From Bacteroidia bacterium (GTDB lineage: Bacteria; Bacteroidota; Bacteroidia; Bacteroidales; Prolixibacteraceae), in assembly GCA_026391295.1 (NCBI GenBank), contig JAPLDS010000019.1, positions 22,634 to 57,566 of the forward strand: a stretch of 34,933 bases of DNA, written 5' to 3'. Position numbers and translations under genes: made by a program. Below are positions 2,063 through 33,643 of the stretch, in pieces. Under the pieces are notes generated by a model. The model had not been told where the DNA came from. It did not search any database and saw only the letters and a list, made by a program, of their open reading frames with translations. Position 1 is the first letter of the stretch. Every line of letters begins with the position of its first letter.

Positions 2063-3331
2063 ATGAAAAAACGATTTACTAAAAATATGAATTATCGGAG
2101 CCTACGATATTTCATACTCTTAATTGTGACTATATTAATGAACATCAGTTTATTATATAGCAAAAACAAACAATCAAAGAGTCTTGAAACCGTCGTAATC
2201 GATGCCGGTCATGGAGGCAAAGACCCAGGCACAATGACTGGGTCGAAGCGTGAAAAAGACATCACATTAGCTATTGCCTTGAACCTTGGAAATCTAATTA
2301 AAGAGAGAATACCAGGTGTAAAGGTTATTTACACCCGCCATACTGATGTTTTCATACCCCTTTTTGAACGCTCTGTAATTGCCAATAAAAATAATGCAGA
2401 TCTATTTATTTCTATTCACGTTAATTTTTGTGCAACACCATCTATCAAAGGGACAGAAACCTATGTTTTAGGGTTACACCGCACTGAGGATAACTTAAAT
2501 GTTGCAAAGAAAGAGAATAGCGCTATACTTCTTGAACAAGACTACACCACAAGATATGAAGGATTCAACCCGAATCTTTCGGAATCCTATATTATGTTTG
2601 AATTAATTCAAGATACCAATATTGAGCAAAGTGTTGAATTTGCGGGAATCATTCAGGATTCTTTTCGTAAACAGGCACAGCGTGATAGCAGAGATGTTAG
2701 ACAAGCTGGCTTCTTAGTTTTAAGAGAAAGCGCCATGCCATCCGTTTTAATCGAAACTGGTTATTTAAGCAACCCATCTGAAGCTGCCTATCTAATGTCG
2801 GACAATGGCAGAATGGCTATAGCAACATCTATTTACAATTCCTTTAAGACCTATAAAAATAAGTTTGAGTCCAGGCTAAATCAGAAAATTGCAACAAACA
2901 CAGCTGAAGTGTCTGCAGCTGTGCCTTCTGCTGAACTAGGAATCAAAAAAGAACCAGAAGCTAAACCACAGGAAGTCATTAAGGAATCAGAAGTCTTAAA
3001 GGAGCCAGAGATTATAGAGCAAAAAATCGAAAAACCTGCCAAGAGGCTTGTTGAAAAAAAGGAGATCACAACAGATCAGATCACCTATGCGGTTCAGATA
3101 GCTGCATTCCCCAAAAAACTACCCTTGAATTCTAAAATATTTAAAGGGATTCAAGATGTATCAGAATTTCAATTCGGAGGTTATTACAAATACTATTGCC
3201 TAAGCACCGAAACGCTTGCTGAGTCGAAACATAATCTTTCACAAATTCAACTTAAGATTCCAAAAGCTTTTATCATTGTCTTTAAAAATGGGGAGCCGAT
3301 TTTATTTAAAGACAGGCCTAAATCTAAGTAG
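2063..3331 (+). CDS. N-acetylmuramoyl-L-alanine amidase (Amidase_3 family)
   Basis: This is a zinc-dependent periplasmic amidase that cleaves the bond between MurNAc and L-alanine in peptidoglycan, normally during septum splitting or recycling. An uncleaved anchor or signal segment occupies residues 15-33. The catalytic domain (about 43-270) has all expected metal ligands and the catalytic glutamate: VVIDAGHGG (His50), Glu64 in KREKDITLA, SIHVN (His119) and VLIETGYLSN (Glu231). A Glu/Lys/Pro-rich linker (about 285-335) leads to a C-terminal SPOR-like domain (342-422). That domain resembles the end of the next gene product (see findings). A second ATG at 2087 (MNYRSL) is an alternative start. 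The family is certain; the C-terminal domain name is inferred. Confidence 0.93.
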   Translation: MKKRFTKNMNYRSLRYFILLIVTILMNISLLYSKNKQSKSLETVVIDAGHGGKDPGTMTGSKREKDITLAIALNLGNLIKERIPGVKVIYTRHTDVFIPLFERSVIANKNNADLFISIHVNFCATPSIKGTETYVLGLHRTEDNLNVAKKENSAILLEQDYTTRYEGFNPNLSESYIMFELIQDTNIEQSVEFAGIIQDSFRKQAQRDSRDVRQAGFLVLRESAMPSVLIETGYLSNPSEAAYLMSDNGRMAIATSIYNSFKTYKNKFESRLNQKIATNTAEVSAAVPSAELGIKKEPEAKPQEVIKESEVLKEPEIIEQKIEKPAKRLVEKKEITTDQITYAVQIAAFPKKLPLNSKIFKGIQDVSEFQFGGYYKYYCLSTETLAESKHNLSQIQLKIPKAFIIVFKNGEPILFKDRPKSK

Positions 3332-7186: not shown

Positions 7187-8098
7187 ATGCAAACCAAAAG
7201 CCTAATTTCAATTACGGACTTCACCAAAGAGGAATACCTTAAGATAATGCGATTGGCTGCAGATTTTGAGGCAAATCCAGATCAAAACTTATTACAAGGT
7301 AAGGTGATTGCCACCTTGTTCTTTGAACCTTCAACACGTACTAGATTAAGCTTTGAAACAGCCATTAACAGACTAGGAGGAAAAATTATTGGATTCTCAG
7401 ACTCCTCCTCATCGAGTGTATCTAAAGGCGAAACTTTACATGACACGATTAAGATGGTCAGCAATTATGCCGATCTAATTATTATGCGTCACCCAATGGA
7501 AGGAAGTGCTAGGTACGCTTCTGAGGTTTCGAATATTCCGGTAATCAATGCGGGTGATGGCGCCAACCAACATCCATCGCAGACATTGCTCGATATGTAT
7601 TCGATCATGAAAACCCAGGGAACTTTAGACAATATAAATCTTTTCTTAGTTGGCGATTTAAAGTATGGGCGCACGGTGCACAGTTTACTAATGGCCATGC
7701 TTCAATTTGAAAATCCAATCTTTAACTTTATTGCTCCTGCAGAACTTGCAATGCCAAATGAATACAAGCTATTGCTTGCTTCAAAAGGGATTAAATACTA
7801 CGAGCACGATGAGTTTACTGACATTATAAATGCTGCAGATATCATCTATATGACACGCGTTCAAAAGGAGCGATTTATCGATCCTGTAGAATACGAAAAA
7901 GTAAAGAATATTTATATTCTAAGAAATGAGATGTTGAAAGGGACAAAGGAGAACATGCGAATCCTGCATCCTCTGCCTAGAATTAATGAAATACACACTG
8001 ATGTAGATGATAATCCAAAAGCCTACTATTTCACACAGGCCAAAAACGGTGTCTATGCTCGAATGGCCATCATCGCTCATTTATTGAATCTTAAATAA
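7187..8098 (+). CDS. pyrB: Aspartate carbamoyltransferase catalytic subunit
   Basis: This enzyme joins carbamoyl phosphate and aspartate to give N-carbamoyl-aspartate, the committed step of de novo pyrimidine synthesis. The carbamoyl-phosphate loop [13 protein letters not shown] (Ser49-Thr50-Arg51-Thr52-Arg53) is intact. So are the RHP motif (IIMRHP), the [14 protein letters not shown] stretch and the HPLPRI motif (about 261-266). Length 303 is normal. pyrI follows after 18 bases, so the two form an operon that should give the allosteric ATCase holoenzyme. A palindrome and a -7 box precede it. Confidence 0.97.
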
Positions 8099-9715: not shown

Positions 9716-10466
9716 ATGAAAATCCCAATCGCATCTTCAGAACTTCTACTTAATCCAGATGGGTCAATTTATCATCTTCATCTGAAGCCAGGACAAGTGG
9801 CTTCAGATATCTTATTAGTTGGAGATCCAGATCGAGTAGATCTAATAGCCAGCTTTTTTAATCATATAGAATTTCGCATACAAAACAGAGAGTTTATAAC
9901 TATAACTGGGTTATATCACAAAAAACGGATAACTGTTATCTCAACTGGCATTGGGACAGACAACATAGATATTGTGGTGAATGAACTTGATGCCTTAGTA
10001 AATATAGATTTTCAAACTCGAGAGATCAAAGATAAAAAGACGAGCTTAAACCTAACTTTTTGAAGATTCCTTCAAAAAGCATACGGCTTGGAATAGCTTA
10101 TTAGCCTCCCCGTATGTTGTTAATTGCAGCAAAAAGCTTTACGATAAAATTTTTGATCAAAATTTCATCTCTGGGATCACCATTTCTGCTCCTGGATTTT
10201 ATGGTCCGCAAGGAAGGATATTGCGCCTAGACCTTGTTGATCAGGACATCAATGCAAAAATTGAATCCTTTAGATTCAAAGATATGTCAATTACCAATTA
10301 CGAAATGGAGTGTTCTGCGATCTATGGATTAAGTCATTTGCTAGGGCACCAAGCACTAACTGTTTGCCTGATCATTGCCAACAGAGTTACTTTACAAGCA
10401 AGCATCAACTATAAAGAGAAGATGAAAGAATTAGTAACTTTCTTACTTGATAGGATGTCAAAATAG
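9716..10466 (+). pseudogene. Nucleoside (uridine-type) phosphorylase gene broken by an internal out-of-frame deletion
   Basis: The intact family member would split uridine with phosphate in pyrimidine salvage. The 5' part (9716 to about 10056) encodes the normal N-terminus: LLLNPDGSIYHLHLKPGQ, ILLVGDPDRVD, TGIGTDNIDIVVNELDALV. It then hits a stop at 10061-10063. The 3' part continues in a different frame from about 10056: FEDSFKKHTAWNS, SPYVVNCSKKLYDKI, APGFYGPQGRILRLDL, ITNYEMECSAIYGL, ending at 10466. Roughly 40-50 residues expected in between, including the IGT(S/C)GG phosphate-binding motif, are missing, so a one-base sequencing error cannot explain it. The product should be inactive. The next gene starts 1 base later, suggesting a former operon. 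Confidence 0.88.
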
Positions 10467-13364: not shown

Positions 13365-13658
13365 TTATTTATTCAATAGAGCTATACAATTGTCTATTTC
13401 CCGCACAATCTTGTTTAACTTCAATTTAGCTTCATGCGAATCATCATCCGCACCAAGTAATGTTTTAGTAAACTTTAAATCTTCACTTTTTCTGGCAAGT
13501 TCGTCATTCTTTAAAGAGAGCTCATCGAGCCGAATCATTAGCTTCGATTTCTCCTCTAACAATAACTCTTTCTCTTTGTTAACTTGCTGGTATAGTCCGA
13601 TTAGTTTATCAAGTTTCTCTTTAAACTCTCTTAATAAAGCAGTCTCTCGCTCTGTCAT
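13365..13658 (-). CDS. Small coiled-coil protein upstream of zapA
   Basis: The 97-residue product is almost wholly a predicted coiled coil (heptad-like Leu/Ile, many Glu/Lys: LLLEEKSKLMIRLDELSLKN), with a short acidic break GADDDSHE and a final helix. It has no signal peptide or catalytic motif. Co-transcription with zapA and its coiled-coil nature suggest a division-ring accessory comparable to ZapB, but that is inference from position and shape, not recognised homology. Confidence 0.75.
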   Translation of the reverse strand: MTERETALLREFKEKLDKLIGLYQQVNKEKELLLEEKSKLMIRLDELSLKNDELARKSEDLKFTKTLLGADDDSHEAKLKLNKIVREIDNCIALLNK

Positions 13659-30096: not shown

Positions 30097-30178
30097 ATTT
30101 TATTCAGAATAAAAACCTTATAAAATTAACAAAAGACGCAAACCTCTACTATAAAAGTTACATATACAGGTAAACAAA

Positions 30179-30209
30179 TTGATAATCTCTATGTTATAAT
30201 GTAAATTTA
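30179..30209 (+). promoter_or_regulatory. Promoter for ung
   Basis: TTG (30179-30181) and TAAATTTA (30202-30209) are separated by 20 bases. The second element differs from TAnnTTTG in its last base only. The start codon follows 39 bases after the box. Confidence 0.45.
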
Positions 30210-30247
30210 CCTAAGCATTCAAGTAGCAACTAAAATTAAAGTATTGC

Positions 30248-30910
30248 ATGGAGATTTTCATTGAAAAAGAGTGGAAAAATAAGCTTAAGCAGGAGTTTTA
30301 TGATCCCTACTTTACAAATCTAATCGATTATTTGAAAGCAGAATTTAACAGCCACACCATTTACCCACCTTTAAATTTAGTTTTTAATGCGTTTAACAAG
30401 TGTCCATTTAGCTCTACAAAAGTTGTAATCTTAGGTCAATACCCATATCACGAAGAAAATCAAGCACATGGACTTTGTTTCTCGGTGCCTGATGGCGTAA
30501 AAATTCCCCCTTCCTTACGAAATATTTTCAAGGAGCTTCAAAATGATCTTGGAATTTCTTTGTCGGATAGTGGTAATCTAGATAGATGGGCCGAGCAAGG
30601 TATTTTACTTCTTAATGCAACATTAACTGTTCGAGCAAAAGAGGCTGGATCTCACCAAGACAAAGGCTGGGAGATCTTTACTGATAAGGTTATTCAAACC
30701 TTAAGTGAGCAACACAACAACCTAGTTTTTGTATTATGGGGAACATTTGCACAGAAAAAGCAGGTACTTATAGATCCTAAAAAACACTTAATATTAACTT
30801 CTGTACACCCATCTCCACTATCAGCGCATCGTGGTTTTTTTAACAACCACCATTTTAGCACCATAAATAAATATCTAGTTGCGCATCAAAAGTCAGCAAT
30901 CAACTGGTAG
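30248..30910 (+). CDS. ung: Uracil-DNA glycosylase (family 1) with Tyr in place of catalytic Asp
   Basis: Family 1 UDG removes uracil from DNA in base-excision repair. The fold is complete: ILLLNATLTVRAKEAGSHQDKGWE (with the uracil-contacting Asn), LVFVLWGTFAQKK and the HPSPLSAHRGFF loop with its catalytic His. PPSLRNIFKEL and AHGLCFSVP are present too. The active-site motif GQDPYH, however, reads GQYPYH: Tyr65 (codon TAC at 30440-30442) replaces the water-activating Asp, and the following GPG is EEN. A Tyr codon differs from Asp by one base. Length (220) is normal, so this is not a truncated gene. Activity should be greatly reduced unless another residue compensates. Confidence 0.93.
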   Translation: MEIFIEKEWKNKLKQEFYDPYFTNLIDYLKAEFNSHTIYPPLNLVFNAFNKCPFSSTKVVILGQYPYHEENQAHGLCFSVPDGVKIPPSLRNIFKELQNDLGISLSDSGNLDRWAEQGILLLNATLTVRAKEAGSHQDKGWEIFTDKVIQTLSEQHNNLVFVLWGTFAQKKQVLIDPKKHLILTSVHPSPLSAHRGFFNNHHFSTINKYLVAHQKSAINW

Positions 30911-33259: not shown

Positions 33260-33643
33260 TCAGCTACAACTTCGAATTTTAATCGCATCTTCTTTAATGA
33301 TAATCTGTTTACGATCTAAATCGAAACCTTTTTCTTTTAAAGCTTCAGCCAATTGAATGTTGTTAACCGAACCAAATATTTTTCCGGTTGTACTTGTTTT
33401 AGCACCAATAGAGATACTGATTCCTTTAAGCTTTTCAGCTAAAACCAGTGCTTCATCTTTTAGTTTAGCCTCTTTGTGGGCCCGTTGTTTTTGATTCTCA
33501 GCTAATACCTTTTTCGCAGAAGAAGTGGCTAAAACAGCCAATTTTTGTGGAATTAGGAAATTGCGTGCGTAACCGTCTTTCACATTAACGCTATCGTCTT
33601 TGCTACCCAGATTTTGTACGTCTTGAAGAAGAATGATATCCAT
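33260..33643 (-). CDS. rplI: 50S ribosomal protein L9, C-terminus lost by internal out-of-frame deletion
   Basis: L9 binds 23S rRNA near the L1 stalk. The N-terminal domain and long helix are normal (MDIILLQDVQNLGSKDDSVNVKDGYARNFLIPQKLA, then TGKIFGSVNNIQLAEALKE). After DRKQIIIKEDAIK (to residue 122) the frame changes: the last codons read IRSCS and stop. The normal ending FEVVAE and its TAA are still present in another frame at 33276-33256. About 20 residues (the usual EVG...KLHKEV... segment) are missing, so this is a deletion with frame loss and not a single-base error. The product (127 residues; about 148 expected) probably keeps partial function, since L9 is often dispensable. Confidence 0.9.
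   Translation of the reverse strand: MDIILLQDVQNLGSKDDSVNVKDGYARNFLIPQKLAVLATSSAKKVLAENQKQRAHKEAKLKDEALVLAEKLKGISISIGAKTSTTGKIFGSVNNIQLAEALKEKGFDLDRKQIIIKEDAIKIRSCS

Follow-up and report, generated by a model that had tools for sequence, protein, structure and literature searches.

The stretch of DNA analysed here, referred to as the window, comprises 34,933 nucleotides of a Bacteroidia bacterium assembly and carries an open reading frame that runs from ATG to TAG and encodes a full-length family-1 uracil-DNA glycosylase (Ung; Table 1). The assignment is based on similarity over the full length of the protein. It scored 318.6 bits with NCBIfam NF003589 (cut-off 223) and 272.2 bits with TIGR00628 (cut-off 185.75), both equivalog models for ung, and 69.1 bits with the Pfam UDG model, and the solved structures closest to it are Ungs, with E values down to 3.4e-69. 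Bacterial family-1 enzymes such as E. coli Ung have the same length and share the other motifs. Indeed, ILLLNATLTV (residues 119–128) and VLWG are intact, and the uracil-recognition Asn123 (in LLLN), Phe78 (in CFSV) and the His187 of the loop are all kept. In contrast, the Asp of GQDPYH, the defining catalytic residue of the family, is missing: the translation around motif 1 reads ...VVILGQYPYHEENQAHGLCFSV..., in which codon 65 encodes Tyr. The original prediction, made from the sequence alone, had described this substitution in an otherwise full-length protein with the Asn motif and the HPSPLSAHRG loop preserved, and inspection of the reading frame, the codon and the translation confirmed each of these points.

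Table 1. Positions of the features discussed (window coordinates unless another locus is named)
Feature	Position	Strand	Basis or remark
ung, family-1 uracil-DNA glycosylase, Asp65 to Tyr	30248–30910	+	220 aa; open reading frame, profile scores, matches to solved Ungs
Intergenic region 5′ of ung; ~30137–30244 unaligned to the longer counterpart in G016	30097–30247	+	Alignment with G016
Motif 1, GQYPYH and not GQDPYH, residues 63–68	30434–30451	+	Translation
TAC codon, Tyr65, position of the water-activating Asp (E. coli Asp64); GAC in the nearest relative	30440–30442	+	Codon comparison
Uracil-recognition motif LLLNATLTV, residues 120–128, intact	30605–30631	+	Translation
Leu-intercalation loop HPSPLSAHRG with catalytic His, residues 187–196, intact	30806–30835	+	Translation
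Nucleoside phosphorylase gene, udp-like	9716–10466	+	Our naming
Ribosomal protein L9 gene, rplI	33260–33643	−	Our naming
Partial ung copies in relative G001, stops in one copy	L108, ~2369–2786; L109, ~2592–3007		
GQSPYH Ungs	L210, 10598–11188; L211, near 7849–7886	−	Same contigs as L212, L213
GQNPYH Ung	L209, 2127–2164	−	

The gene sits inside a 57.6-kb contig, ~4 kb from its end. The gene order of the window is identical in the nearest relative (G016) and, judged by this context, the gene is the organism's ordinary chromosomal ung. It is also the sole match to the UDG superfamily in the assembly (2.93 Mb in 81 contigs, 97.5% complete), so that no intact second copy was seen.

The region upstream of ung had been described as containing a good promoter, which was not borne out. 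Between 29600 and 31000, five promoter-like sites were found against 4.7 ± 2.1 in shuffled sequences, a chance level. The best of them, at 30171–30200 (10 of 12 positions, with TG before the −10), is a candidate promoter; the Bacteroidota-type promoter element had no match in the upstream region. The claim that there is no other damage holds for ung itself and fails for the surroundings, where both udp and rplI carry deletions relative to G016. In udp, the loss of ~130 bases at ~10.06 kb has left two open reading frames, and the gene is whole in G016 and in a sister genome (G006). In rplI, a deletion of ~59 bases at ~33.27 kb replaces the C-terminal end of a gene that is whole in G016. The relA gene has a 30-base in-frame deletion against G016, and the window reading frames compared other than udp and rplI aligned with G016 along their full length or close to it. 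The three deletions are compatible with recent decay of some genes in this lineage or, alternatively, with flaws in the assembly.

To place the substitution among related sequences, a set of 101 genomes (the window genome and 100 relatives) was searched and Ung was matched in 91. Among the 90 matched relatives, 81 covered the catalytic site and nine gave weak partial matches that were left out; the other ten had no match. Asp occupies the site in 81 of 81. The remaining key residues are equally constant in 82 loci of the relatives, with Phe kept in 82 and Asn and His in 81 each (one locus lacks coverage for each of the two). The Ung of G016 is 84% identical to the window protein and has GAC where the window genome has TAC, a difference of one base. 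Of 80 columns that are invariant in 28 reference Ungs, the window protein departs from three (Y33F, D65Y and V119I) and that of G016 from one, and the presence of Asp in all 81 relatives argues that D65Y is not a matter of chance. The search for Tyr-bearing homologues in close relatives that had been proposed as a check therefore returned none, and Tyr65 is, on this sampling, private to the window genome among the relatives compared.

One of the relatives, G001, has a full gene and, at two further places, tandem copies of the opening ~65 codons of ung that are degenerate in part (Table 1). In the sister genome G006 no ung was matched; the next gene gave a weak match of 51 residues and the gene after that none, in a search without a positive control. 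The G006 contig stops ~4.7 kb beyond relA, shortly before the point at which ung would be expected to begin, and an ongoing loss of ung in this sister was rejected, as the pattern fits an assembly gap.

A probable gap also appears in the window genome. The stretch of G016 at L141 5000–14500, with thyA, ppa and open reading frames that we take to be mutL and folA (all names except thyA being our own reading), is unmatched there. The thyA gene itself had no match in the window genome and is present in G016 and G006, the 9.5 kb around it in G016 had none either (again without a positive control), and ppa is absent from the window genome and found in the other two. The counterpart of this stretch is probably sequence missing from the assembly. 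A link between ung inactivation and the loss of thymidylate synthase was accordingly rejected, missing sequence being the most likely explanation.

To ascertain whether the same change occurs elsewhere, 84,980 genomes of the genome_contigs collection, one per species, were scanned with a degenerate DNA pattern for GQYPYH...QA[H/N]G; this figure counts the species genomes scanned and not Asp-type Ungs. Two other loci were found, in the Alistipes MAG MI.5_1 (L045) and in Vibrio ordalii ATCC 33509 (L046), and the pattern had no match in viral_contigs; scans of either collection may omit records of the window genome or of very near ones. As a check of sensitivity, the Asp version of the pattern matched 77 of 81, 10 of 11 and 13 of 14 Ungs from the relatives of the window genome, V. 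ordalii and the Alistipes genome, respectively. Both proteins are, like the window Ung, full length apart from the same replacement of Asp by Tyr, and they come from lineages unrelated to it. The relatives of each carry Asp: 11 of 11 compared at the site for V. ordalii (12 of 12 matched) and 14 of 14 for Alistipes (14 of 15 matched), in all 25 Ungs, of which five in the Alistipes set were already among the 81. Uniform Asp around both genomes makes independent events at the tips likely, and a clade of GQYPYH Ungs was rejected, given two hits in genome_contigs, none in viral_contigs and Asp in the relatives. In the collections searched, Tyr thus looks like the outcome of separate single-base events. 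The three cases might point to some tolerance of Tyr, but every one of them is an isolated tip. No published D64Y, D145Y or GQYPYH uracil-DNA glycosylase was found in the open-access literature searched, nor was an open-access paper joining ung, D64N and uracil.

Between the window genome and G016, ung has a dN of 0.096, a dS of 1.76 and a dN/dS of 0.055, within the range of 0.005–0.166 for the 30 window genes tabulated (34 open reading frames were compared; the two udp pieces, rplI and a 97-aa reading frame at 13365 were left out). Polarised with 13 outgroups from the genus, the 35 residue differences between the two Ungs divide into 13 derived in the window genome, nine derived in G016 and 13 ambiguous. 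By these comparisons ung is under ordinary purifying selection, and a long-standing relaxation (dN/dS 0.055; 13 against 9 derived residues) was not seen; the three departures from the 80 invariant columns, against one in G016, lean slightly toward relaxed constraint. A long-dead Ung would be expected to leave an excess of C>T and G>A changes on the branch of the window genome. No such excess was seen in 25 genes when changes at synonymous third positions were polarised with G006: the ratio of C>T plus G>A to T>C plus A>G was 220:288 on this branch and 198:295 on the branch of G016 (Fisher p 0.34). The five genes of the 30 not used here, ung among them, lack a counterpart in the G006 stretch. 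A long-standing repair defect was rejected on this result. Taken together, the dN/dS, derived-residue and transition results indicate that Tyr is probably recent relative to the split from G016, or not real. An old loss of Ung with too little change to detect would, strictly, still be compatible with these tests. The suggestion of a very recent mutation is supported: the change is a single base, private to the genome, in a constrained gene and with no mutational footprint.

The dS of ung to G016 is the highest of the 30 genes, 1.76 against 1.13 for the next. This value and the mostly unaligned upstream region perhaps reflect an old recombination beside ung.

The expected effect of the substitution can be judged from studies of the motif 1 Asp. 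In E. coli Ung, according to passages of two papers, Asp64 is proposed to act as general base on the attacking water, and the leaving uracil is stabilised by His187 (PMC1936997, PMC5387724). Replacement of the equivalent residue, in human UNG the change Asp145Glu and in Arabidopsis UNG a change of Asp173, strongly lowered or abolished activity, as excerpts of the respective reports state (PMC8730318, PMC12428235). Tyr lacks a carboxylate and is larger than Asp, which makes a strong loss of activity likely, and near-inactivity of the Tyr65 protein would, by analogy, likely follow. In the mechanism that we propose, one very recent G>T missense change replaces the catalytic Asp by Tyr. The water-activating carboxylate would be gone and a bulky ring would stand in its place, strongly reducing hydrolysis of the glycosidic bond, while the protein may still flip the base and bind uracil. 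The allele would then be hypomorphic or null and would mark the earliest stage of a missense pseudogene. Laboratory E. coli can do without ung, and the window genome encodes a dUTPase, by which the dUTP pool is presumably kept under control; such an allele should for these two reasons be tolerable.

The reading that we favour, as the probable one, is that the window ung is a recent missense allele with, in all likelihood, a loss of function. Next in rank is an error of consensus or assembly, in which the true codon of the cells is GAC, with TAC a base-level error or a variant taken up from a minority strain; this we regard as doubtful while giving it real weight. It would account for a codon one G>T change away from that of G016, for Asp in every relative that covers the site and for a gene otherwise under normal constraint, and an assembly of 81 contigs that lacks thyA and ppa, probably as one missing stretch, is hence not flawless. 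Against it, ung lies inside the contig, at the ~4 kb from its end noted above, and outside udp and rplI the window reading frames compared align with G016 throughout or almost so.

The readings in which the Tyr65 protein is real and useful fare less well. That it still excises enough uracil, through a relaxed positioning of the water, is unlikely. Some residual activity is possible by analogy with UDG families 4, 5 and 6, which a section of one paper describes as having no motif 1 Asp, family 4 positioning the water by the Asn of motif 3 (PMC5387724), and the intact remaining motifs and the absence of a C>T/G>A footprint would agree with retained excision. However, the missing footprint is equally expected under a recent mutation, the adjacent Gln of motif 1 is unchanged, so that there is no doublet like that of family 4, and the human and Arabidopsis replacements cut activity strongly or fully (PMC8730318, PMC12428235, in the portions cited above). 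Still less credence is given to a selected change of function, namely to a non-hydrolytic binder of uracil-DNA. Its model is the inactive human UNG D145N/H268N, from which, according to part of the source, a U-DNA sensor was derived (PMC8070346) and which, in an extract of another, also serves as a dead control (PMC11162499). The motif 1 Asp is replaced in the sensor as in the window Ung, and with the sequence family and the uracil-recognition motifs intact the latter is a plausible binder without cleavage; the engineered sensor, as that source describes it in part, also lacks the His, whereas the window Ung keeps it, and binding by the latter is a prediction (PMC8070346). Vaccinia virus D4 provides a precedent for a family-1 UDG with a role independent of catalysis, yet in the relevant passages it retains the Asp (GIDPYP) and has a partner, A20, nothing similar to which was seen at the window locus (PMC1936997). 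For a uracil-DNA binding pseudoenzyme, the loss of the catalytic residue would be conserved across a lineage, and Tyr was found in the window genome only among the relatives compared. The two other GQYPYH proteins are likewise lone tips among theirs, and there is no new gene neighbourhood, the order being that of G016. Selection for something other than the normal reaction, as the original prediction had suggested, is accordingly without support: no Tyr clade turned up among the relatives and collections searched, and there is no clear acceleration or set of accompanying changes in the active site. The fuller version of this idea, in which the protein would be a selected binder that perhaps marks or protects uracil, and in which GQYPYH would have arisen at least three times by way of a stable dead-end complex, is held to be just as improbable.

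Other replacements of the catalytic Asp were encountered in viral sequences. The viral scan yielded 64 stretches with the Asp form and three in which the codon at the catalytic site does not start with G, one coding for Asn and two for Ser; Ala, Gly and Val were not found at this site in the scan, the range of which did not include Glu. The two Ser loci (GQSPYH) are family-1 Ungs that keep the His and Asn motifs. They lie on contigs from different metagenomes and are 94% identical in nucleotides within the gene, with 19 synonymous and seven non-synonymous codon differences, which indicates that the two contigs are distinct and both retain Ser. Asp is present in the four nearest further relatives found, which are 44–52% identical. 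At one locus the neighbouring open reading frame is presumably a family-B DNA polymerase. The Asn variant (GQNPYH) is otherwise intact. The phages collection yielded 100 records with a match to Ung, of which one, Flavobacterium phage Fpv1, was examined and has Asp (GQDPYP).

The Tyr65 ung reveals no new system, and there is no evidence that it has a new function; a better place to seek binders derived from Ung is offered by the three viral contigs with Ser or Asn at the catalytic site. If the base is real, the recent missense allele in the window genome would be a naturally occurring change at the catalytic site of the sole UDG detected in that genome, caught soon after its origin. It would then offer a small natural experiment on how bacteria do in the absence of Ung, and it could serve as an example for software that detects missense pseudogenes.
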